8,611 nt of DNA from contig NZ_QTUV01000012.1 in NCBI RefSeq assembly GCF_003435815.1, positions 54,019-62,629 of the forward strand, given 5' to 3'. Positions within the stretch are counted from its first letter, which is position 1. Each line of letters opens with the position of its first letter. Source of the DNA: Dorea sp. AM10-31. Its GTDB lineage: Bacteria > Bacillota > Clostridia > Lachnospirales > Lachnospiraceae. Positions 1 to 8,611 of the stretch are shown piece after piece. Below the pieces are notes generated by a model. That model had not been told where the DNA came from and searched no databases. It saw only the letters and a list, made by a program, of their open reading frames with translations. Position numbers and translations under genes: made by a program.

Positions 1-390
1 CGCAAACCCGTGTGGAGAACTTAGCACATAGATAGCGAAAGAGAATAGCCAACGAATTTACGCTGACGAAAAAAGGGGTTCCCCTGGGGGAACCGATCGG
101 CAAAAGGGGACTCCCATTCTTCCTTTTTCTGGCGTGCTTTCAGCAGCATATTTTCCTCAGAATAATATGCTGCAACGCCAAGTGGTCTGGGAGCCGGGCA
201 GACCAACACAGGATGTGGTGCCGGGAATGGGACACAAATAAATCAGCATTTTACACGATTGATCAACAATGCTATTCCATCATTACCATTCCGATTCTCA
301 CCAGCAGCCACATGGCTATTTGAAATATTCTATTTACATATTTTTAAATTGCAAAAGGAACGGCATTAAACCGTTCCTTTTGCATCTGTT
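1..390 (+). repeat. Long direct repeat, copy 1 (390 bp)
   Basis: Matches 2667-3055 at roughly 90 % by eye, with the first 53 bases identical; divergence and small indels increase after about 310. It contains stem-loops at 77-84/87-94 (GGTTCCCC/GGGGAACC), 143-152/164-173 (GCAGCATATT/AATATGCTGC) inside an outer GGCGT/ACGCC pair (131-135/175-179), 183-189/199-205 (TGGTCTG/CAGACCA), a short hairpin at 207-217, and a terminator hairpin at 351-383. No convincing gene lies in 1-419. The similarity probably continues to the left of the window, because position 1 corresponds to the right foot of the long palindrome seen before copy 2. The strand is assigned from the proposed RNA and is inference. Confidence 0.93.
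351..383. terminator. Bidirectional intrinsic terminator-like hairpin ending repeat copy 1
   Basis: Perfect 13-bp inverted repeat GCAAAAGGAACGG / CCGTTCCTTTTGC around a CATTAAA loop. The GGAACGG/CCGTTCC core is flanked by A4 and T4, so it can work in both directions. On the minus strand it lies about 37 nt past the stop codon of the AP2 gene; on the plus strand it closes the structured repeat. Confidence 0.8.
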
Positions 391-419
391 ACTACTTATG
401 TTTCTTTGTCTTTTAATTC

Positions 420-1070
420 TTATCTTGCCTCTTCTTGCTTTTTACCATATTTTTTTATTATCGGCCAGAACACTTCTTTTTCTGCTTCTTTCCTTGCTGC
501 TGCGGCTTCTTCTTTCTTATCGTATCTTCCGAGGTAGTAGTTCTTCCCTTTAAATGTAATTTGCGCTTTCCACATGCCTCTCTGCTTATCCCAGGACACA
601 CCTTTAATCCCAGATGTATTATTTTTTGACATTCTTTGAGCAAGACTTTGTACACATGTGTTCTCTACTCTTATAAGTTTTTTCGTGTTCTCCTTCAGTG
701 TTCTACCATTCTCTTGATTATGATGACCACATGTTCCTACATCTCTAGCGCGTGATATTAATCGTTCGCAATATCTTCCGCATTTCAAGCATTTGCATTT
801 CCACACCATTCTGCCGGAAGTTTCTGCTCTCACAGGTTCTATAAACAACAAGTCTTTTACAACTTTACCTGTCATGTCTTTTTTCCGTTTACACCCGCAG
901 GATTTTGTATGCCCGGAAGTTAATTTGTTTCTTACAATTTCTCTAATTGTCCCACATTCACATTTGCACGTGTAATATTTATTATGAGACGAATCTGTCT
1001 TATCAGACTCGCTTATTACAGTCCATGATCCGAATTTATCTCCAATATTAACTTCTTTGAGTTTTTTCAT
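420..1070 (-). CDS. Phage-type AP2 DNA-binding protein with two zinc-ribbon motifs
   Basis: 216 aa. After an N-terminal GDKFGSWTVI motif come two Cys-rich modules: residues 35-60 (C35, C37, C39 with C58, C60) and 92-116 (C92, C94, C97 with C114, H116), which look like zinc ribbons. Residues about 152-200 form an AP2-like domain (SGIKGVSWD, GMWKAQITFKGK, YYLGRYD, then an Ala-rich helix). The tail is Lys/Glu rich. In phages and mobile elements this architecture often accompanies HNH homing endonucleases, but no HNH motif is visible here, so a DNA-binding or regulatory role is more likely than cleavage. The ATG has GAGGGTGA 5 nt upstream and lies 12 nt past the preceding gene's stop. It is the last gene of the operon; the terminator at 351-383 follows. 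Family is confident, exact role unknown. Confidence 0.85.
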   Translation of the reverse strand: MKKLKEVNIGDKFGSWTVISESDKTDSSHNKYYTCKCECGTIREIVRNKLTSGHTKSCGCKRKKDMTGKVVKDLLFIEPVRAETSGRMVWKCKCLKCGRYCERLISRARDVGTCGHHNQENGRTLKENTKKLIRVENTCVQSLAQRMSKNNTSGIKGVSWDKQRGMWKAQITFKGKNYYLGRYDKKEEAAAARKEAEKEVFWPIIKKYGKKQEEAR

Positions 1071-1082
1071 GGATTCACCCTC

Positions 1083-1367
1083 TTATTTACTGATTTCCCA
1101 TATGTCTCCACCGGAGTTCCACTCTCCGTCTTCATCATATTCATTTTCCTCCACATAGTATTCTGTGACGTTGCACATTGTACCTGTTGCGGAGCTAAAC
1201 TCATCTATTTCCGTATTGTATTTTTTCAGCTCTTCCAGAGCTTCTTCCTTGTTACGAAACTTTTTAATAAGCTCTGGACTTGCATTTGTATCATTAACTG
1301 CACATCCCACGGTCATATCTTCTTTTTTTATTTCAATGCTATTCTTTTTTAATTCATATAATTTCAT
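1083..1367 (-). CDS. Hypothetical 94-aa acidic protein
   Basis: I do not recognise a characterised family. The chosen ATG starts MKLYELKK and has GGAGG 6 nt upstream; an ATG 11 codons earlier (1400) has no comparable site and would overlap the upstream gene. The protein has a basic/hydrophobic first third, a Lys/Glu helix (FRNKEEALEELKKY) around residues 38-51, and a Tyr/Glu/Asp-rich C-terminus ending GGDIWEISK. There is no signal peptide or membrane segment. It sits 19 nt after the 120-aa gene and 12 nt before the AP2 gene, so all three are probably cotranscribed. The composition suggests a small soluble, perhaps protein-binding, accessory protein; this is inference. Confidence 0.75.
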   Translation of the reverse strand: MKLYELKKNSIEIKKEDMTVGCAVNDTNASPELIKKFRNKEEALEELKKYNTEIDEFSSATGTMCNVTEYYVEENEYDEDGEWNSGGDIWEISK

Positions 1368-1386
1368 AACATACCTCCGCCTATTT

Positions 1387-1749
1387 TTACAAATTAACAT
1401 TGTCTGTTATTCTAGCTTCTTCTCCAATAAATTCAATACCTATCAGCCTATTACTAAGATAACTACCTTCAAACATATCTGTCATAGAATATTTATATCT
1501 CATAGCATCAAATCCACCGACAATAGTAGCTTTCATAACTCCGTAATATTTATTTCTGTAGGTAACTTCTACTTTCTGCATAGCAGAAAATATTATATCT
1601 ACCGGATAATCTCCTTGAAGTTCAGAAATAACCTCTCTTTTAAGACCAGATAATAATTCTACATCAGAAATGCTAATGATTTCTTCCGTATATTTATTAT
1701 CTTTTATCCACTGTATTGTACTTTCAATTGCTTTATTTTTTTTATGCAT
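1387..1749 (-). CDS. Hypothetical 120-aa protein
   Basis: No known domain recognised. The ATG is preceded by GAAGGG about 6 nt upstream. The N-terminus is Lys rich (MHKKNKAIESTIQWIKDN). A helical region with a short Ser/Leu-rich turn (ISISDVELLSGLKREVISEL, residues 26-45) could be a small helix-turn-helix, but that is a weak guess. The C-terminal half alternates aromatic and charged residues, suggesting beta structure. It has no membrane segment. It is the first gene of a tight three-gene run (120 aa, 94 aa, AP2) and a promoter candidate lies at 1809-1837. The gene is AT rich like its neighbours. Confidence 0.72.
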   Translation of the reverse strand: MHKKNKAIESTIQWIKDNKYTEEIISISDVELLSGLKREVISELQGDYPVDIIFSAMQKVEVTYRNKYYGVMKATIVGGFDAMRYKYSMTDMFEGSYLSNRLIGIEFIGEEARITDNVNL

Positions 1750-1808
1750 TTTACGCCCTTCAATATTTTCTTTTTTATTAATGAATCAATTGTATTTATA
1801 TATATTTC

Positions 1809-1837
1809 ACTATATATTATTGTGTGAATAAAAACAA
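1809..1837 (-). promoter_or_regulatory. Candidate sigma-A promoter for the 120-aa / 94-aa / AP2 operon
   Basis: Minus-strand TTGTTT (1837-1832), 17-nt spacer, TATAGT (1814-1809), in the 109-nt gap between the DUF6487 gene and the 120-aa gene. The -10 matches 5/6; the -35 matches 3/6. The surrounding ATATAT-rich DNA makes chance matches likely. Confidence 0.4.
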
Positions 1838-1858
1838 TACATCTCCGATCATTTATAG

Positions 1859-2068
1859 TTATATATCCATAATAATCTTCCGGCACTCCTTACAACAACC
1901 TGCTTTTGCCATATGTCCAGAACCCATACCCGTGTTATCACTGATACACATACCATTCTTTCGTGGTGGTATTCCGACAACTTTTCTTATATTCTCACTC
2001 CAGTAAATATGTCCGCTACTTTGTATGTATCCTGCTATCATTTCCTTGTCACAATATGGACATTTCAT
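1859..2068 (-). CDS. DUF6487-type small zinc-ribbon protein
   Basis: 69 aa beginning MKCPYCDKEMIAGYIQSSGHIYWSE and ending AGCCKECRKIIMDI. The N-terminal CPYC and C-terminal CKEC pairs (residues 3-6 and about 59-62) form a probable four-Cys zinc site. The CPYC-KEM-GYIQS-W order and the C-terminal CxxCxKIIxD ending are what I recognise as the DUF6487 family, small proteins of unknown function common in Firmicutes. The ATG has AGGGG about 10 nt upstream, a longer spacing than its neighbours. Expression may come from the minus-strand side of the paired promoter at 2092-2121. Confidence 0.8.
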   Translation of the reverse strand: MKCPYCDKEMIAGYIQSSGHIYWSENIRKVVGIPPRKNGMCISDNTGMGSGHMAKAGCCKECRKIIMDI

Positions 2069-2091
2069 AATTCATTCTGCCCCTTTCATCC

Positions 2092-2121
2092 ATTGTAAAA
2101 TATCTTCCTTTTTGTTATAAT
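2092..2121. promoter_or_regulatory. Candidate symmetric bidirectional promoter
   Basis: Plus strand reads TTGTAA (2093-2098), 17 nt, TATAAT (2116-2121). Minus strand over the same bases reads TTATAA (2120-2115), 17 nt, TACAAT (2097-2092). Each strand's -10 overlaps the other's -35. The minus side would transcribe the DUF6487 gene, with a start point near 2085. The plus side would transcribe toward the 3' end of the 46-aa gene, giving an antisense RNA. Confidence 0.45.
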
Positions 2122-2131
2122 CTTTTTATCG

Positions 2132-2155
2132 GAGGGCGGTGGCAAGCCCACCCTC
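2132..2155 (-). other. Strong hairpin downstream of the 46-aa gene
   Basis: In minus-strand RNA, GAGGGUGG pairs with CCGCCCUC across an 8-nt loop, with one U-G wobble; in plus-strand RNA the wobble becomes a C-A mismatch. It lies 25 nt after the 46-aa gene's stop, beside a smaller AAGCC/GGCTT hairpin (2169-2182). No U-run follows on the minus strand, so it may stabilise an mRNA end or be an incomplete terminator. Confidence 0.5.
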
Positions 2156-2179
2156 TCTGGTTTCTCTAAGCCAAAAGGC

Positions 2180-2320
2180 TTATTTATCAGCTATTTCCAG
2201 TTCTGGAAATTTGATTCCCAAAATACCAGCTAAAGCTTTTAACGCCTCATATTCCGATGAACCTTTTTCTGCTTCCCGGTTTAAAAACCGTTGCATTTCT
2301 TCTTTCGTCATTTCTTCCAT
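2180..2320 (-). CDS. Hypothetical 46-aa charged protein
   Basis: Starts MEEMTKEEMQRFLNREAEKGS and ends GIKFPELEIADK. The ATG at 2320 has AGGAG 5 nt upstream; an extended reading from 2365 has no good ribosome site and would include the leader. The first half is a likely charged amphipathic helix, followed by EYEALKALAGILGIKFPE, a second helix. No membrane segment, so it does not resemble a type I toxin. It is first in the minus-strand cluster and has its own promoter candidate at 2384-2412. Function unknown. Confidence 0.65.
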   Translation of the reverse strand: MEEMTKEEMQRFLNREAEKGSSEYEALKALAGILGIKFPELEIADK

Positions 2321-2370
2321 GGCTACTCCTTTCTCCTCTTGCCCGGTTGATGTCTTTATAAGCACATCAA

Positions 2371-2412
2371 TTGTGATACACTTATTATCTCATTTGCAAA
2401 GGCTTATCACAA
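2371..2412 (-). promoter_or_regulatory. Promoter of the 46-aa gene with an overlapping inverted-repeat operator candidate
   Basis: Minus strand TTGTGA (2412-2407), 17 nt, GATAAT (2389-2384). An exact 8-bp inverted repeat, TTGTGATA (2371-2378) and TATCACAA (2405-2412), brackets the -10; one arm is the -35 itself. Such placement fits a repressor site. Confidence 0.55.
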
Positions 2413-2566
2413 CCTATTGATTAACCTATAAATGAAACTTTTTTCATTTTTAATGTGCTTTTTAGATTCGACTCCGGCGGGGAGCGTTCTTTTTTTCTGT
2501 CAGCGTATTTTGGCATCCTTTTTCTCCTTTCTTTATCTATGTGCTTTTTGAGTTCTCCTCACGTCT

Positions 2567-2675
2567 GGGTTTGCGTGTATCATGCACGAACAGGTTTCAG
2601 CGCATACGCATGGTGGAGAACAACGTGGACCTTGCGTATGCGCTGGAATCTGTTATGATACAAATTCGCAAACCC
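2567..2675 (+). other. 109-nt near-perfect palindrome (39 paired positions)
   Basis: GGGTTTGCG (2567-2575) pairs with CGCAAACCC (2667-2675). TGTATCAT (2576-2583) pairs with ATGATACA (2655-2662). An uninterrupted 22-pair stem joins 2589-2610 to 2633-2654, including a perfect CAGCGCATACGCA / TGCGTATGCGCTG core. Only a 5-nt bulge (2584-2588), a 4-nt bulge (2663-2666) and a 22-nt loop interrupt it. The right foot is the first nine bases of the direct repeat. Confidence 0.9.
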
Positions 2676-3055
2676 GTGTGGAGAACTTAGCACATAGATA
2701 GCGAAAGAGAATAGCCAACAAAATTACGCTGACAAAAAAGGGGTTCCCCTGGGGGAACCGATTGGAAAAAGGGGAATCTCATCCTTCCTTTTTCTGGCGT
2801 GCTTTCAGCAGCATATTTTCCTCAGAATAATATGCCGCAACGCCAAGTGGTCTGGGAGCCGGGCAGACCAACGCAGGATGCGGTGCTGGGAATGGTACAC
2901 AAATAAATCTGCATTTTACACAATCGATCAACAATGCTATTTCATCATTACCATTCCGATTCTCACCAGCAGCCATCTGACTATTTTTGACTGTTTCTTT
3001 TATGTATTTTTATAATGAAAAAGAACGGCATTAAACCGTTCCTTTTGCATCTGTT
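2667..3055 (+). repeat. Long direct repeat, copy 2 (389 bp)
   Basis: Partner of 1-390, in the same orientation, 2666 bp away. The two copies enclose the five-gene minus-strand cluster, so homologous recombination between them would delete or circularise 2.67 kb. A 65-codon minus-strand frame (2779-2976) is open here but interrupted by TGA in copy 1. Confidence 0.93.
3018..3046. terminator. Terminator-like hairpin ending repeat copy 2
   Basis: GAACGG (3023-3028) / CCGTTC (3036-3041) around the same CATTAAA loop as copy 1, then an A-C mismatch and A4/T4 flanks (3018-3021/3043-3046). Weaker by one pair than copy 1 but still symmetric for both strands. Confidence 0.7.
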
Positions 3056-3086
3056 TGATTCAATTAAATTTCTTCTGTTGAGGGAA

Positions 3087-3209
3087 TTACACTTTCTCAT
3101 CCTCTTTTTCTTCTATTGCTTTTGCATCCTCTTTAACAGCTCTTTTGCAGAGCGAGTCCGGCCACTCGATCTGTGCGGAGGGCGGAAGGTAGAATACACG
3201 AAAAGCCAG
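3087..3209 (-). pseudogene. 3' remnant of a minus-strand gene
   Basis: An open frame of 40 codons (LAFRVFYLPPSAQIEWPDSL, then a Lys/Glu-rich helix ending EEKEDEKV) stops with TAA at 3087. It has no ATG, GTG or usable TTG start and begins just after an in-frame TAG at 3210-3212. The IEWPDSLCKRAVKEDAKA stretch has the composition of a real helical C-terminus, so I read this as the tail of a gene whose 5' part was lost, with a junction near 3180-3209. Like the AP2 gene after copy 1, it ends about 40 nt from the repeat's terminator. The parent family is not recognised. Confidence 0.45.
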
Positions 3210-3225
3210 CTATAATGCCGGCTTT
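3202..3225 (-). terminator. Intrinsic terminator downstream of the 71-aa gene
   Basis: AAAGCCGGC / GCTGGCTTT with loop ATTATA on the minus strand (one internal mismatch), followed by TTTTC. It lies about 120 nt past the 71-aa gene's stop and overlaps the truncated start of the remnant at 3087-3209. Confidence 0.6.
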
Positions 3226-3345
3226 CGCTATATATAGAACCCATAAAATTTGGCGCGATTTTTTCATTTTTTCTAACTGCTCCGGTATAAGATTAGCCAA
3301 TTTCATACTCTTCCAAGAAACATTAAATTACTACTTTATGTAATT

Positions 3346-3561
3346 TTACATTTCAGGATCTGTATCTTCAAATTCCTCCGGATACAGATCTTTTAAGATT
3401 TCATATAATCCTTCATAAATCCGTTGTTTCATTTCCGGTGGAACGTCCGGAACATCTTTACTTTCTTCTACTTCAGGTTCTTCATCCAGACAGGTATCTG
3501 CTAATAACTTTTCTTCCGGTTCTGCAAGCTCAGCAACTATAGTTCTCTTCCAATGCTTCAT
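3346..3561 (-). CDS. Hypothetical 71-aa acidic protein
   Basis: MKHWKRTIVAEL start, then a Glu/Asp/Pro-rich middle (DEEPEVEESKDVPDVPPEM, residues 26-44) and a C-terminal helix (RIYEGLYEILKDLYPEEF) ending DTDPEM. The ATG has AAAGGGA about 9 nt upstream. No membrane segment or metal motif. The acidic character could suit a DNA-mimic or a partner of a basic protein, but there is no direct evidence. It lies between the second direct repeat and the integrase end of the element, on the same strand as the integrase, and may belong to the host island rather than the element. An AT-only stem (3325-3331/3340-3346) overlaps its stop codon. Confidence 0.65.
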   Translation of the reverse strand: MKHWKRTIVAELAEPEEKLLADTCLDEEPEVEESKDVPDVPPEMKQRIYEGLYEILKDLYPEEFEDTDPEM

Positions 3562-3642
3562 ATTTTATTTCCCTTTTACTTTGCATACAATATTTCATGT
3601 GAAATTATATATGTCTTTTTGACTATCTTTTTATATCTTCTT

Positions 3643-3684
3643 AAATGTCCGCAAAGCCTTATTTTATAGGCTCTACGGGCATTT
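3643..3684 (-). terminator. Terminator-like hairpin past the integrase gene
   Basis: Nested stems AAATGTCCG/CGGGCATTT (3643-3651/3676-3684, with one non-Watson-Crick pair) and AGCCT/AGGCT (3655-3659/3668-3672). On the minus strand the GC core ends in CATTT. About 85 nt beyond the int stop codon, it could end the rep-xis-int transcript or mark the old flank of the insertion site. Confidence 0.5.
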
Positions 3685-3739
3685 TGCTTTTGTGGTGAAC
3701 CTCGCATATCTAGGTCTATCTTCTTATATTTTCCCTGTC

Positions 3740-3760
3740 AATCGTGGTTAAAATCGTGGT
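3740..3760 (-). repeat. Tandem AATCGTGGT repeats: candidate integrase arm-binding sites
   Basis: AATCGTGGT occurs at 3740-3748 and 3752-3760, a 12-bp period, 8 bp beyond the int stop codon. Tn916-family integrases have an N-terminal domain that binds direct repeats near the element ends, which fits this location. The exact Tn916 repeat was not compared. Confidence 0.5.
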
Positions 3761-3768
3761 AAATACTT

Positions 3769-4962
3769 CTATGCGATTAGACGCTGAACCTCTGATTTTG
3801 CGGTATCTATGGACGCATGAGCGTACCAGTTCATTGTGATACTGATGTTTGAATGTCCCATGATATACTGTAAATCTTTTGGGTTCATGTTCTTGTTTGC
3901 CAATCTTGTGCAGAATGTATGGCGTAGCGTATGCGGTGTGATATGTGGCAAGGGATTGTCCTTGTGGTGCTTGTTGTATTTCTTTACCATACGGATAAAT
4001 AAGGCGTTGTAGTCAATCGCAACTTTGGGCTTGCCTTTATGATTGACAAACAGAAAATTGCTCCGTCCGTCTATCACAAATGGTTCTGCCTTTGGGCGTT
4101 TCTTCATAACCCGTTGAAATGCCTGTATCGTTTCTCTGCTTAATGGCACTTGCCTTATTCCGCTTTTTGTTTTAGGCGTTTCAATATAATAGCCCTGTTC
4201 CTTGCTCTTTAGTAACTGGTGGTCGATAATCACAACTTCATTCTTAAAATCAATATCGGCTACTGTCAGTCCGCACAGTTCCGAGATACGAAGTCCTGTC
4301 TTTAACAGTATCAGCACATCATCATAATGCTTGTGATACACATTGTCCGTCTTAATAAATGACAATAATGCTTGTTCCTGTTCCTCTGTCAATGCGACTT
4401 TCTCTTTGGTATCATTTTCTAGGACTTCATTTAACTTGAAATCAAAAGGGTTCTTCCTTACGCAATCGTCTTGTATAGCGATATAGAATGACGCTTTTAA
4501 CGAGCGTTTATGGTTGTTAATGGTGTTATAGGAAAAGCCTTTTTCTTTCATGCGTAACGCCCATTCCTTAGCGTCAGAGGGTTTTATCGTATCAATGCTC
4601 CTAGCACCTAACTTATCCTCTTTTAATAACCGCATGAGTTGTTCCCGTTGTTTCTGTGTGCTTTTCTTCACATTTGCCCTCTGTGCGTTCTGTTTGGCGT
4701 AAAGTTGGCAAAGCGTCATTTTCTTGCCTGTGCTGTCGATACCGTCCTCAATATCCCGTCTTATCTGCTGTTCCAGTTCTCGAAGTGAGGGTTTTTCCCG
4801 TTTTCCCTTTGGTGTCGGGTCTGTGGGTGTCAATCTCCAAGCATACACATATTTTGTGTTTCCAAATGCGTCCACATATTTATATAAGTATTTTCCGTCT
4901 GTTCGTTGGCTCTCTCCAGTATGCAGGATACGACCTTTGTTATCCCGTCTTTTTTCTTTCAT
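3769..4962 (-). CDS. int: Tn916-type tyrosine integrase
   Basis: 397 aa, close to the 405 aa of Tn916 Int, with which it shares long identical runs (GKKMTLCQLYAKQNAQR, SLKASFYIAIQDDCVRKNPFDF, HITPHTLRHTFCT with minor changes). Residues 1-60 form the arm-DNA-binding domain, about 80-180 the core-binding SAM-like domain and about 190-397 the catalytic domain. Catalytic residues all appear present: Arg225 (TGLRISEL), Lys264 or Lys266 (ETPKTKSG), His344 and Arg347 (HTLRH), His370 (MGHSN) and nucleophile Tyr380 (NWYAHAS). It cuts and rejoins element ends during excision and integration. The ATG has GGAG 8 nt upstream. It lies 78 nt after xis, separated by stem-loops at 4974-5033 that may limit its translation or readthrough. 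It appears intact. Confidence 0.97.
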   Translation of the reverse strand: MKEKRRDNKGRILHTGESQRTDGKYLYKYVDAFGNTKYVYAWRLTPTDPTPKGKREKPSLRELEQQIRRDIEDGIDSTGKKMTLCQLYAKQNAQRANVKKSTQKQREQLMRLLKEDKLGARSIDTIKPSDAKEWALRMKEKGFSYNTINNHKRSLKASFYIAIQDDCVRKNPFDFKLNEVLENDTKEKVALTEEQEQALLSFIKTDNVYHKHYDDVLILLKTGLRISELCGLTVADIDFKNEVVIIDHQLLKSKEQGYYIETPKTKSGIRQVPLSRETIQAFQRVMKKRPKAEPFVIDGRSNFLFVNHKGKPKVAIDYNALFIRMVKKYNKHHKDNPLPHITPHTLRHTFCTRLANKNMNPKDLQYIMGHSNISITMNWYAHASIDTAKSEVQRLIA

Positions 4963-4973
4963 GGTGTCTGCTC

Positions 4974-5033
4974 CTTTCCTTGTTGGAAAGAGCCTTGATA
5001 TGACTTGTGTTCATCATAACACATACAAGGCTC
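4974..5033 (-). promoter_or_regulatory. Stem-loops in the xis-int gap, partly covering the int ribosome site
   Basis: In the minus-strand transcript, GAGCCTTG (5033-5026) pairs with CAAGGCTC (4997-4990), enclosing a perfect TGTGTT/AACACA stem. Right after it, CTTTCC (4990-4985) pairs with GGAAAG (4979-4974), whose last bases belong to the int Shine-Dalgarno AAGGAG. The first stem is followed by only TTT, so it could be a weak terminator; the second could reduce int translation. Confidence 0.55.
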
Positions 5034-5040
5034 ATTTGCA

Positions 5041-5244
5041 TTAGATTGCGTCCAATTTGTCAATAACCTTTTCAAACTGTCGGCGTTTAATCTGTATGCG
5101 GTTGCCATTCATAATGAGCCAGCCAGCGTCCTTGTTTTCCTCTGCCAATCGTCTTAACTTGTTTTCTCCGATACGGAAATACTTTGACGCTTCTTCATTG
5201 GTAAGGGTGTATTTTTCCCATACGGGAATATCGTTGTTGTTCAT
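5041..5244 (-). CDS. xis: Tn916-type excisionase
   Basis: 67 aa, the same size as Tn916 Xis and nearly identical in the core ([26 protein letters not shown], then [13 protein letters not shown]). Residues about 12-35 form a winged-helix, MerR-like DNA-recognition region; the basic [14 protein letters not shown] segment is the wing. Xis bends DNA at element ends and steers the integrase toward excision. Its ATG shares one base with the TGA of the upstream relaxase gene (ATCTGATG), so the two are translationally coupled; the ribosome site is AAGGGGG. The int gene follows 78 nt later. Confidence 0.96.
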
Positions 5245-6254
5245 CAGATACCCCCTTTCCCATGTTTCGTGTCATACTGGATATAGGGGATAAGGTCGGT
5301 GCGGTTTATCCTCTGTAAATGGGCGGTTAATTTACTGGAAAGGGAATTGCTGTATCTTGCCCTATCAAGCATAGTTCCTACTTTTTCCAGTCCACCTAAT
5401 GCGTCATGTTCTTCTAAGAAATAAAAACTTTTGACAGCGGAAATCACGCCACCCTCTGTGAGCCATTGCTGTGTTTCCTCAAGGGAATTATGCTGTTTTG
5501 GTACTTGCAGTTCCAAGACTTCCACAGCCCCCAAAAAGCGTTCCCAAAATCGACACGTTTTCCATCTGCTTTTATTACTTTCGTTTCTGTTTGGTACGAC
5601 AAAGCGTAGGTTGTTTGCCAGCAGTCCGAAAGCCAGTTCCCCAAGTTCCAGCGGTCTGTCTTTGAATGTCATGGCAAAAACATGAGCCTTATCATCACGC
5701 AGTTGCATTTCTGTCCGTTTCCAACTGCCAACTTCATCAAGTGTCTTATTATGTTTTGAACAGACTTCCTTATCCTTATCATAAAAGCGGTAGGACAATC
5801 CCGATTTTCCAGCACCGATATAAACGGTCTTTGCAGTGTCGAAATCATCAAACTTGCTTTCGTCAAAGTGGTAGCCCTCACTATTCGAGATAAATTCCTC
5901 TTTTTCACATTTCTTCTTTATCTGCTCTATGGTAAAGAATGGCTTTTCGTTCCTATCATCAATGGCAATATCAAGTCTTGTGAAATGGAAGTTATCCAGT
6001 CCGTATCTTCGCTCACAGCGTCGGAACATATCCCCAAAGGTATAATTCCTACTGTCGAGAATACGGAAAATATCATCACAACCTCTGCCAGTCATAACAA
6101 GATAACAGCCTAGCCCTTGTGGATTGTCCTCTGTCTTTCTTGCGTCCCCCGATACATAAATATCTCCAATCTGCCAGCGTGCCTGATAGGTCTTGAATTT
6201 AACGCTTGCCGGATAGACATTGAAAATGTCAGTCGGTAAACCTAAAATGTGCAT
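5244..6254 (-). CDS. Replication initiation factor / Orf20 (MobT)-type relaxase
   Basis: 336 aa from the first ATG. It carries the Rep_trans-type signature of rolling-circle initiators: [10 protein letters not shown] (residues 91-100), the [17 protein letters not shown] region (144-160) whose Tyr residues are candidates for the nicking nucleophile, and KRTEMQLRD (179-187). It matches the Tn916 Orf20 family that nicks oriT and also supports replication of the excised circle. The natural start is probably upstream: codons 6335-6255 continue in frame and read like the family N-terminus (VKIDYISIVFDTATAEDVI). The codon at the expected start, 9 nt after GGAG, is ATA, and a TAA lies just before. 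The shorter ATG at 6254 has no clear ribosome site. Translation may therefore be reduced or begin at ATA. It overlaps xis by 1 nt. Confidence 0.9.
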
Positions 6255-6420
6255 GATAACATCTTCTGCGGTTGCAGTATCAAATACAATGCTGATGTAA
6301 TCAATCTTAACGGATAAATTTTTGTGTGTAGTTATAGTGCATTACTCCTTTCGTACTTCCCGTTTTTTTGCGAGGTAAAAATCGTGTTTTTTCCTTTATT
6401 TATCACAGTTTCTAGGTACT

Positions 6421-6670
6421 ATGACATGTATGCGCAGGGCGGTGTTACATATACGCCCTTTACGAACGCCGAAAGGCGTTCCCTTTCTTCCTGTGTCTGA
6501 TCCGTTCTTAACGCTCACGAGCCTTGTAAGGCTCGTGGCTAAACGGAACAGCCCCAGTCAGAAACCCGATTTTCAGTCTGATAGTCCATGCCTATTCATG
6601 CTATCAAAGTGAAAATATCTATTCTATATGCTTACTCAAGCATGTGATTGACCCTAGCGTGCTTAATCAC
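6421..6670. other. Hairpin-rich intergenic block: candidate oriT / replication origin
   Basis: Upstream of the relaxase gene are three clean inverted repeats: AGGGCG/CGCCCT (6436-6441/6454-6459), GAACGCC-GAAA-GGCGTTC (6464-6481) and a 10-bp CACGAGCCTT/AAGGCTCGTG with a 2-base gap (6516-6525/6528-6537). The last is enclosed by TCCGTT/AACGGA (6501-6506/6541-6546). Near-repeats CAGTCAGA and CAGTCTGA follow around 6556-6581. GTGATT/AATCAC (6644-6649/6665-6670) and AAGCA/TGCTT (6638-6642/6660-6664) interleave. The only open frame (6421-6612, +) looks non-coding. The block is more GC rich than its surroundings. Relaxase genes usually sit next to their nick site, so oriT is the best guess. Confidence 0.5.
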
Positions 6671-6722
6671 TCTTTCCAATACGATAATAACGCCATTAGA
6701 ATTACTTGTCAAGAAGTTTTTG

Positions 6723-6751
6723 TTGACTTTTGGATATATATTAAGTATGAT
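6723..6751 (+). promoter_or_regulatory. Sigma-A promoter for the XRE regulator
   Basis: TTGACT (6723-6728), 17-nt spacer, TATGAT (6746-6751): 5/6 matches in each box with ideal spacing. Transcription would start near 6758, leaving a ~44-nt leader. Confidence 0.75.
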
Positions 6752-6801
6752 ATGCTTATAAACACCAAGAAAAGAAACGAAAGGAGCGGTTATACTAAGT
6801 T

Positions 6802-7473
6802 ATGGAGCATTATGAAAAGAAAATCAGTTTCTTAGGAGAGAACATACAAACCATAAGAAAACACAGGAAAATGAAACAACAGGAACTTGCGGACAAAATC
6901 GGTATCAATATGCAGAGCCTTTCCAAGATTGAACGTGGTGTGAATTATCCTACCTTTGATACGTTGGAGAAGATAATGGACGTGCTGGGTGTAACGCCCA
7001 ATGAATTGTTATCAGGGGAATGGAAATATATCGACCACACCGAGCCATATATCATGGACGTTATCAAACGGGAACAGGATTTTAATGTTTCTTTAGATTA
7101 TCTGTCTGAAAATGAATTTTTCAATGACGAAAGAGAATGTAGATTTTACATGGAATATAAACTCATACAGTATATTCATAACTACATTACCAATGAGGTT
7201 ACGGAGTTGGAAGAACTTATGGAAATCAAGCAGTTGATACAGCGTCAGAAATTGGAACGCATAATGAAAGTGCATAAGGAAATGCGAGGTTTAGACCGAT
7301 ACAGAGAACAGCCTAAAGAATATAAATACCACGACCCTTATGATGATTGGATATTCCGTCAGCTTGCGGATATTGACAACAGAAATAATATTCCTAATAC
7401 TTCTCCACAAGTAGACTTTAACGAGGGAGATTATGAAGATTATCTAAAGGCGAAATGGAACAGAGGTCTTTAA
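6802..7473 (+). CDS. XRE-family helix-turn-helix regulator
   Basis: 223 aa. Residues about 11-70 are a Cro/CI-type HTH (LGENIQTIRKHRKMKQQELADKIGINMQSLSKIERG, then PTFDTLEKIMDVLGVTPNELL), with the recognition helix near 36-46. The rest (71-223) is a charged, mainly helical region (coiled-coil-like around 125-170) of unknown role, perhaps dimerisation or signal sensing, ending in the acidic stretch VDFNEGDYEDYLKAKWNRGL. It is divergent from rep-xis-int and probably controls the element's own genes. The start is the only ATG after an in-frame TAA, but the nearest strong ribosome site (AAGGAG, 6780-6785) is 16 nt away, unusually far, so translation may be weak. A strong promoter and terminator make it monocistronic. 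Confidence 0.92.
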   Translation: MEHYEKKISFLGENIQTIRKHRKMKQQELADKIGINMQSLSKIERGVNYPTFDTLEKIMDVLGVTPNELLSGEWKYIDHTEPYIMDVIKREQDFNVSLDYLSENEFFNDERECRFYMEYKLIQYIHNYITNEVTELEELMEIKQLIQRQKLERIMKVHKEMRGLDRYREQPKEYKYHDPYDDWIFRQLADIDNRNNIPNTSPQVDFNEGDYEDYLKAKWNRGL

Positions 7474-7502
7474 TTTCCTCTTGCATGGAAGATACAGCAA
7501 AC

Positions 7503-7565
7503 AAAAAGCCCAGTAAAGAGTGCAAAGCACCACCAATGGTGGCAAGGCTCTTGACAGGGCTTTTT
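7503..7565 (+). terminator. Large nested intrinsic terminator of the XRE gene
   Basis: AAAAAGCCC (7503-7511) pairs with GGGCTTTTT (7557-7565), enclosing AAGAG/CTCTT (7516-7520/7548-7552) and CCACC/GGTGG (7530-7534/7538-7542). It ends in a T-rich run 30 nt after the stop codon; the A5 on the left also makes it usable on the minus strand. Confidence 0.85.
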
Positions 7566-7612
7566 CTTTTCTGTGGTAGGTAATCAAGAGGAAGAAAGAA
7601 AAAGTGTGTATG

Positions 7613-7766
7613 TTCAATGCAGAAAATATTCAAAGGGTATGCTGATTTTTATTGTGGCGGATATATGGAACTGTTATAATATGGTATGAAGAAAAGGACA
7701 AATTAGAGTTTATAGAACTAAGAAAAGTGGAAGTTGTGGAGGTGATACTATATGAAGTATATAGGT
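7613..7766 (+). repeat. Promoter/leader repeat, copy A
   Basis: Resembles 8425-8545: both start GTTCAAT, contain TTTTATTGT as -35 surroundings, then TATAATATGG, then a TATGAAGAAAA-GACAAATT segment, and reach an ATGAA start codon. Small indels separate the copies. It suggests duplication of a promoter-gene unit. Confidence 0.65.
7652..7680 (+). promoter_or_regulatory. Promoter of the membrane-protein gene
   Basis: TTGTGG (7652-7657), 17 nt, perfect TATAAT (7675-7680). The start point would be near 7687, giving a 65-nt leader. The same arrangement recurs at 8457-8485. Confidence 0.65.
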
Positions 7767-8294
7767 GGCATTATAACGGCATATATTGTCTTATTAGTCT
7801 TAGATATAATGCAAAGAAGAAATCATACGCGAACACAATCTTTAAAAAAATTTACGGTAAGGACAATAACCGATGTATCATTTATATGTGCAATAGGCGC
7901 TTTGTTTGTACTTGTTGCTTTTATCTGGTGTTTGTGGAGTGACCCTGAAACTTTTTGTTCTAAAGGGAGTTTGATGATAATTATTCCATTTTCTATTATT
8001 TGGTTTGGAGTTACTTTTTTGGGTATGATTGCACCAATAAAAGGTGTCTGGGATATTTGTGTAGATAATAATGATGTGACTGTAATTAAGGCATTTTTTT
8101 ATAAAAGGCATTGGAAAGTATCGGACATATCCTATTGTAAAATGAAACGTGGTGGTATGAATGTGTATGTCAATGGAAGAAAGAAAAAAGCTTTTTTTGT
8201 TGACGGTATAACAGACCACTTTGATAACTTTATAAAGAGAATGGAAAAAGAGGGAAAAGAGATTATTCTTCCAGAAACAAAAGAAAAGAGATAG
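7752..8294 (+). CDS. Three-helix membrane protein with PH-like C-terminus (DUF6560-like)
   Basis: 180 aa. Three hydrophobic helices: residues 4-19 (IGGIITAYIVLLVLDI), 42-62 (VSFICAIGALFVLVAFIWCLW) and 74-95 (LMIIIPFSIIWFGVTFLGMIAP). Residues about 97-168 are a soluble beta-rich domain (GVWDICVDNNDVTVIKAFFYKRHWKVSDISY, NVYVNGRKKKAFFVDG, then a final helix) that looks like a bacterial PH domain. I associate this layout with DUF6560, function unknown. The ATG has a strong GGAGGTGA 8 nt upstream. The gene is more AT rich than the integrase module. It has its own promoter and terminator, so it is a separate unit, either cargo of the element or flanking DNA. Confidence 0.85.
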   Translation: MKYIGGIITAYIVLLVLDIMQRRNHTRTQSLKKFTVRTITDVSFICAIGALFVLVAFIWCLWSDPETFCSKGSLMIIIPFSIIWFGVTFLGMIAPIKGVWDICVDNNDVTVIKAFFYKRHWKVSDISYCKMKRGGMNVYVNGRKKKAFFVDGITDHFDNFIKRMEKEGKEIILPETKEKR

Positions 8295-8342
8295 GTTTAT
8301 GGATAAGCAAATTACAGTTTGACAACTTCATATCCATTATAC

Positions 8343-8376
8343 AAAGCAGTTAGTTGTATGATTGACTGCTTTTCTC
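8343..8376 (+). terminator. Intrinsic terminator after the membrane-protein gene
   Basis: AAAGCAGT (8343-8350) / ACTGCTTT (8365-8372), 8 bp, followed by a T-rich TTCTCTT tract, 48 nt past the stop codon. Confidence 0.75.
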
Positions 8377-8424
8377 TTACCTAAATTTTAGATTGGAGTG
8401 ATGAAATAATGTACTGTTAGAGCT

Positions 8425-8545
8425 GTTCAATAAGATTATCGGTGCATAAAATTTTATTGTAGTGCTAATATGTGAGTGATATAATATGGATATGAAGAAA
8501 ACGACAAATTTAGAATTTGAAGTAACTAGGGAAGTAAATACTATG
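8425..8545 (+). repeat. Promoter/leader repeat, copy B
   Basis: Second copy of the 7613-7766 leader. Similarity is strongest around TATAATATGG (8480-8489) and the following TATGAAGAAAACGACAAATT segment, and is shorter by about 30 bases before the start codon, where the strong GGAGGTGA of copy A is missing. Confidence 0.65.
8457..8485 (+). promoter_or_regulatory. Promoter within leader copy B
   Basis: TTGTAG (8457-8462), 17 nt, TATAAT (8480-8485), aligned with the membrane-protein promoter at 7652-7680. Confidence 0.55.
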
Positions 8546-8611
8546 AAAAAATTATTATAACTTTTTTAACACCAGAAATTTATTCTACTATGTCAGAAGA
8601 AGAACAAAATT
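8543..8611 (+). pseudogene. Partial, apparently frameshifted gene at the window end
   Basis: ATG at 8543 has AGGGAAG upstream but reads MKKLL and stops. One more base in the following A6 run would join it to an open frame (IIITFLTPEIYSTMSEEEQN) that runs off the window. The parent family is not recognised. Alternatives: the true start is the ATG in STMSEEEQN, or a sequencing error in the homopolymer. The upstream 8295-8542 holds only the terminator, a vestigial ATG-TAC-TGT-TAG frame near 8410 and the leader repeat. Confidence 0.35.

Follow-up and report, generated by a model that had tools for sequence, protein, structure and literature searches.

The window, as the whole stretch of 8,611 nucleotides of Dorea sp. 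AM10-31 DNA analysed here is called, contains two copies of a large structured element, which, with a probability of roughly 45%, is a DNA control and priming element acting as a folded single-stranded + strand and governing an establishment-type operon. As such it would be an element of the EGeRS1/single-strand origin (sso) kind that matches no Rfam family, and a non-coding RNA is the leading rival explanation. The arms of its giant stem co-vary in three elements, each copy has a terminator-like hairpin on the - strand directly beyond the stem, and a ribosome-binding site and a start codon lie in the 5′ arm; the action as single-stranded DNA, the loading of polymerase and the identity of the transferred strand are inferred.

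Extent, copies and overall fold of the element

The two copies have the following positions:

2450..3055, + strand: structured element, copy 2, in its likely full extent as judged from the similarity to plasmid pCY186, the point where the copies diverge and the DNA fold
1..390, + strand: structured element, copy 1, a direct repeat whose 5′ arm and tip lie beyond the window edge

The copies are spaced 2665-2666 bases apart and align in three blocks of 253 nt at 93%, 108 nt at 84% and 38 nt at 97%, which confirms the second copy at 1-390 reported in the initial annotation. Their divergence sets in after about 390/3055, just past the common right-end hairpin. The first base of the window already lies within the 3′ arm of copy 1, which lacks its 5′ start because the window begins there.

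The RNA fold of 2546-3060 is better than that of shuffled sequences with a z of -8.1 on the + strand and -8.8 on the - strand, and the DNA fold of 2450-3000 as a single strand has a z of -12.8, so the stem-loops in series noticed earlier are far beyond chance. For copy 1 without its start (DNA fold of 60-335) the z is -3.5. The limits first given, 2546..3048, proved too short, as the long stem reaches 2499/2736 and the sequence in common with pCY186 starts from 2452. The Rfam covariance-model search proposed as a check gave no match in the window at the gathering score, which leaves a large repeated structured element without an Rfam class. An imperfect 33-nt direct repeat (73%) around ATGTGCTTTTT was also observed at 2442-2474, before the 5′ arm, and at 2528-2560, within it; the matching region of pCY186 contains three copies of ATGTGCTTT.

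Relatives in Butyrivibrio plasmids

Plasmid pCY186 from Butyrivibrio proteoclasticus was found with positions 1-3590 of the window as a query and matches 2452-2581 at 71.3% (E 4e-6 in 7.3 Gb). It is the only one used of the 13 plasmid records obtained in this search, the other 12 having E values of 0.02 or worse. The pCY186 element has an architecture similar to that of the window element and a fold z of -12.1, and it matches in turn plasmid pNP21 from B. fibrisolvens at 76% over the first 139 nt (E 5e-13), the fold of which exceeds shuffles to a moderate degree only (z -3.9). A further search gave eight records, two of them from Butyrivibrio and six matching in the tip only (E 0.003 to 0.5), and four of these six were retrieved.

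Both Butyrivibrio plasmids share the same gene order, namely a - strand set comprising an ArdC-like gene, a DUF5688 gene and a small ORF, then the element, then a + strand ORF, so that the element is located directly upstream of the small ORF, the DUF5688 gene and the ArdC-like gene. The + strand ORFs beyond the element are unrelated to each other. The ArdcN domain scores over the Pfam cut-off in pNP21 and below it in pCY186 (E 0.018) and was found in none of the ten window ORFs scanned; no recognised anti-restriction function was detected among the neighbouring genes of the window. In pNP21 the element lies on the same strand as the gene for a 'plasmid recombination protein'.

With 2546..3048 as a query, nothing was found at 1e-5 in the plasmid and phage collections. 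Likewise, no homologue of the element was detected in exact-pattern scans of viral and genome contigs, in contig scans guided by its - strand translation or in a contig scan guided by the AP2-domain protein of the window. Single matches in two viral-contig scans turned out to be unrelated GC-rich sequence and were dismissed as chance, and 24 phage records, of which one Blautia phage was inspected, were left unused, their best match (E 0.002) lying over the AP2 gene.

Giant stem and co-variation of its arms

The giant stem consists of the following parts:

2499..2604, + strand: 5′ arm, complementary to 2639-2736
2605..2638, + strand: tip, with no detectable match to the Rfam family RF01691 in the window
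2639..2736, + strand: 3′ arm, complementary to the 5′ arm and included in the arm-swap test

In the arm-swap test every 5′ arm was scored against every 3′ arm across the three elements with 200 mononucleotide shuffles per pair, the window arms being taken as 2499-2590 against 2641-2737. The own-arm scores of 79 (window), 106 and 68 lie above all 200 shuffles each (maxima 43, 48 and 43) but are high by choice, as the arms were picked for pairing, and the informative part is the swapped arms. All six swapped pairs scored 32-42, none of them above its own shuffle maximum, even though these arms come from elements alike enough to be found with blastn. As the own arms match and the swapped ones stay at the shuffle level, the arms have changed together. 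Judging by this comparison of three distinct elements, the folded strand is under selection. On the + strand, the three giant stems contain 19 G-T vs 9 A-C pairs (7:4, 7:2 and 5:3). Percent identities of the arms are left out, since they are inflated by cheap gaps.

Hairpins of the 3′ module and strand preference

The stem is followed by a series of smaller structures:

2742..2759, + strand: hairpin HA, which resembles an intrinsic terminator with its T run when read on the - strand
2764..2795, + strand: hairpin HB, relying on G-U pairs
2796..2844, + strand: hairpin HC, with a similar shape of other sequence at the same place in both relatives
2848..2870, + strand: hairpin HD, with the loop GGAGC(C/TC)GGG
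2889..2900, + strand: block GGAATGGTACAC, identical in copy 2 and pCY186
3018..3048, + strand: right-end bidirectional hairpin, in both window copies

HA is paired in all four copies (copies 1 and 2, pCY186 and pNP21), one of which has both partners replaced in two of the pairs, and together with its T run it is terminator-like on the - strand in 4/4, being placed where transcripts would stop before the small ORF. HB has G-U at columns 45/63 in 4/4 and forms a helix in the + consensus which is absent from the - consensus. Part of HC is paired differently in the best fold of copy 1. The stem and loop of HD are the same in both window copies and pCY186 and changed in pNP21, where GGAATGGTACAC is changed as well; in copy 1 this block has one base different.

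Two-sided changes in the 3′ module amount to 5/21 pairs in the - consensus and 4/28 pairs in the + consensus, and the covariation term is 0.38 for the former, which is worse, vs -0.75 for the latter. The consensus consists of four rows, two of which are near-identical, and the strand is therefore suggested rather than proved; the pair types suggest a lean to the + strand.

Opposite-strand ORF, promoters and terminators

The 5′ part of the element overlaps an ORF on the other strand:

2421..2516, - strand: 31-codon ORF, coding for a KK(E)RSPPE peptide, with its start codon within the 5′ arm
2524..2531, - strand: Shine-Dalgarno sequence GAAAGGAG of this ORF, within the 5′ arm

Its counterparts comprise 33 codons in pCY186 and 29 codons in pNP21. 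The codon differences in RSPPE are synonymous among the three elements and the remainder of the peptide differs; GAAAGGAG is identical in all three, with a start-codon distance that varies and is long in pCY186. The mechanical ORF list also includes, among others, a + frame at 2455-2658 (67 aa, GTG). The - frame at 2779-2976, matched by five metagenome 'proteins', is interrupted in both window copies, at a different position in each, and therefore looks incidental. The absence of a convincing ORF across the region is not confirmed, the 5′ part being overlapped by the 31-codon ORF and its Shine-Dalgarno sequence.

The five metagenome proteins have the appearance of - strand read-throughs in close relatives, and the same five came up again when seven - strand translations were used for a profile search. 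In one of them (P0004) the 3′ module joins directly onto the sequence left of the stem, and the join would lie at the short direct repeat TTTTTCTG (2492-2499 and 2789-2796). This suggests a relative, known from the protein alone, without the ~297 bp between the TTTTTCTG repeats, i.e. without the entire giant stem. Another of the metagenome proteins (P0003) likewise departs at the stem side.

The promoter scan of 2400-3150 gave three promoter-like sites vs 1.4 (sd 1.1) in shuffles. The sole + strand site, 2987-3016, lies within the 3′ part of the element and not upstream of it, contrary to the weak upstream promoter of the initial annotation; an AT-rich pair before 2450, visible by eye, is a possible promoter. 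The two weak - strand sites (9/12 matches) are located in the 3′ arm and are found in the window only. No promoter-like site was detected in the scanned stretch of pCY186, and those of pNP21 are outside the element only, with the only + strand site serving the ORF beyond it, so no promoter is common to the window, pCY186 and pNP21 elements in the scanned stretches. The hairpin at 3018-3048, regarded earlier as a terminator, is listed by the terminator scan and occurs in both window copies but is followed by no more than four consecutive T, and no counterpart was reported in the pCY186 and pNP21 scans. Near the 5′ end, a + strand terminator-like site was found in the window (2476-2501) and pNP21 but not in pCY186.

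Link to single-strand origins

RF01691, described in Rfam as 'Bacillus-plasmid RNA', matches plasmids pTA1060 at 6354-6409 and pTA1040 at 5114-5169. The published sso intervals of these plasmids are 6349-6549 and 5109-5307, respectively (PMC4595007), and both matches fall within them. Judged by its position, the family represents stem-loop 1 of a DNA origin, and RF01691 may be a single-stranded DNA structure rather than an RNA. In the main-text parts covered of the literature naming RF01691, no statement equating it with a single-strand origin was found. According to the report giving the sso intervals, the ICEBs1 counterpart of these origins works in one orientation only (PMC4595007).

RF01691 matches the pNP21 stem at its tip (12423-12461) with 23.4 bits and an E value of 7.8e-5, which does not reach the gathering score of 31, and it has no other match in that 20.5 kb record. 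A model built from ten sso stem-loops, R1, ranks the same tip first in 276 kb (16.5 bits, E 0.07). The pCY186 tip has no match to RF01691 or to the model of sso stem-loop 1. Over 28 nt it is 96.4% identical (E 0.04) to a small L. agilis plasmid that carries a rep gene, in which the neighbourhood of the matched loop looks like a single-strand origin. In the window, no RF01691 match to E 10 was found at 2400-3060 and no convincing R1 match (best + strand site 7.1 bits). As the window tip matches neither model, the link to the origins is one step removed for the window.

Among 14 control genomes RF01691 was matched in B. subtilis only, as expected if ICEBs1 carries the site. Of 17 records scanned, most of which had been picked on account of an sso or a match in the tip and which are hence no survey, 14 were matched at 0.001 and 12 over the cut-off. 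A 205 kb plasmid of Alicyclobacillus fastidiosus (L015) carries RF01691 at 2029-2065, 4014-4050 and 6356-6392, within 4.4 kb, each copy being just upstream of an opposite-strand gene, and in a Microbacterium record (L014) the family is similarly placed beside nrdH-ssb. The location of genes on the template side of RF01691 holds for these two records and not for L027 and L028, and it was not used as evidence. In pTA1060, skipping-rope RNA is matched with 50.4 bits at 6191-6260 on the - strand, at a distance of ~90 bp from the origin.

Two further candidates were rejected. The TAGCGA at ~2700 resembles CS-6, an ssoA motif, and is not kept in the relatives. Relaxases encoded on some of the plasmids matched in the tip raised the possibility of an oriT at the end of the hairpin; the coincidence of RF01691 with the sso fits the match better.

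Comparison with known systems

The closest functional analogue of the element is EGeRS1 of the pLS20 family of conjugative plasmids. Its description (PMC8708921) presents EGeRS1 as highly folded regions of 400-600 bp, found in several copies immediately upstream of the ribosome-binding sites of establishment operons, ardC included, which show no detectable constitutive promoter and block readthrough. Its mechanism is unknown according to the authors, who reject a single-strand promoter on the ground that the transferred strand is the non-template one (PMC8708921). The element is likewise a long multi-hairpin region in more than one copy and, as seen for copy 2, directly upstream of a ribosome-binding site. 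The in silico scans gave no promoter common to the relatives and a conserved terminator-like hairpin on the - strand. Set against a criterion of >60% identity, no alignment beyond chance was found between pLS20 41000-56000 and the elements, and the folded + strand of the element would be the template, unlike the strand transferred in pLS20.

The single-strand origins of the pTA1060/pBAA1/ICEBs1 type (PMC4595007) resemble the element in the folded + strand and in the stem-loop 1 motif found below the cut-off at the pNP21 tip. The element is ~3 times longer, however, with a giant stem around the tip, and the motif is undetectable in the window and pCY186. Frpo/ssi of F and ColIb-P9 (PMC11541004 and PMC8708921) are single-stranded DNA promoters with -35 and -10 elements, where inverted repeats fold into a double-strand-like form beside early-expressed genes. 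The folded strand serves there as the template for the genes, and in the element it would likewise be the + strand that folds, with the operon on the - strand. This likeness is by description only, and the elements differ in having no common -35/-10 pair, which counts against a plain promoter in the hairpin. The element may work in the manner of EGeRS1, sso and Frpo, though it is a proven member of none of them.

ROOL, GOLLD and other giant bacterial RNAs of Rfam (cf. PMC12286853) are similar in size and ornate fold. ROOL and GOLLD, named in the initial annotation, were dropped, since the window has no Rfam covariance-model match. A retron was also rejected, as none of the ten ORFs scanned in the window has an RT domain; the sequence beyond copy 1 on its far side is cut off by the window edge.

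Proposed mechanism and alternative explanations

If the element is a single-stranded control and priming element, the + strand, when single-stranded in conjugal transfer or rolling-circle replication, would form the giant hairpin beside the start of the opposite-strand operon. In the duplex state the element would have no promoter of its own and the terminator would keep transcripts begun elsewhere from reaching the operon, which would thus be silent. In a + strand entering the cell or being displaced, the hairpin would provide a double-stranded landing site for RNA polymerase, and the RNA started there would prime the second strand (as in sso), act as the initial mRNA from the leftward operon (as in Frpo), or do both. 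The + strand would be the template for the leftward operon, as a single-strand promoter requires. Once the second strand was made, the hairpin would return to ordinary duplex and the operon would be switched off. The + strand may be the transferred one in these elements, by analogy with sso-bearing plasmids, in which sso and mobV share a strand, as the element and the gene for the 'plasmid recombination protein' do in pNP21.

The non-coding RNA explanation, which we hold to be rather unlikely, would make the element a large structured RNA of a new class, read from the + strand and ending at the 3018-3048 hairpin. It would agree with a fold far better than shuffles, the G-U pairs leaning to the + strand, the short T run after the hairpin that closes both window copies on their 3′ side, and the near identity of HD and GGAATGGTACAC in pCY186; the + strand terminator-like sites (2476-2501 and in pNP21) and the possible promoter before 2450 also leave room for a + transcript. 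Despite that, neither a + strand promoter nor a 3′ terminator is common to the Butyrivibrio relatives, the 5′ part of such an RNA would overlap the opposite-strand ORF and its ribosome-binding site, which the element adjoins in all three cases, no Rfam class fits, and the pNP21 tip carries, below the cut-off, a stem-loop of the family that maps onto published single-strand DNA origins. What is retained of the large RNA originally proposed is a large repeated structure under selection, more likely on the + strand, and not its being RNA.

Somewhat less probable again is a leader RNA at the 5′ end of the opposite-strand operon working as an attenuator, in which the conserved 3′ module would be sensed, the HA terminator would decide and the giant stem would sequester the small ORF's ribosome-binding site. 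HB and more of the wobble pairs fit the + strand, a stem of ~100 pairs after the terminator would be superfluous for attenuation, and no - strand promoter-like site was found upstream of the 3′ module in the scanned stretches. Such a leader would nonetheless account for the terminator-like hairpin and T run at the same place in 4/4 copies, the pairing of the ribosome-binding site and AUG within the stem, the leader-peptide-like character of the small ORF and the - consensus with as many two-sided changes, and EGeRS1 likewise blocks readthrough (PMC8708921). It is highly improbable that the element is a mobile palindromic (MITE-like) sequence, spread by transposition and with no role of its own: the two near-identical copies 2.7 kb apart and the stem-less version joined at short direct repeats, suggested by the metagenome protein, could be explained in this way, but not so readily the same gene neighbourhood in two plasmids and the co-varying arms in diverged copies.

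The single-strand DNA reading can be taken further, and we put this forward only tentatively, as unlikely in its full form, to a gene switch of Gram-positive bacteria, with a co-evolving giant hairpin that would be silent and insulated as duplex and would act as a promoter and replication primer site when single-stranded, the establishment genes being read from the incoming DNA. If this were true, EGeRS1-type regions and the 'Bacillus-plasmid RNA' would be one family of single-strand DNA signals. The early expression of establishment genes in Gram-positive conjugative elements is an open question, which the element would tie to single-strand origins and for which it would be a small, testable construct.

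Surroundings of the element in the window

The region 420-1070 codes on the - strand for an AP2-domain protein, distant relatives of which (<60% identity) were found in 43 phage and 60 plasmid records, with 44 of the latter belonging to Listeria. Positions 3591-8519 are occupied by a Tn916/Tn1545-type integrative element with genes for an integrase, an excisionase, a Rep_trans initiator and an HTH regulator. In the plasmid comparison, the top record aligns with half of the window at 94.9%, and the repeat studied here is located outside the Tn916/Tn1545-type element. At the right edge, the 53 bp at 8559-8611 are identical to a stretch of aacA-aphD (aminoglycoside resistance) annotated in several phage records.
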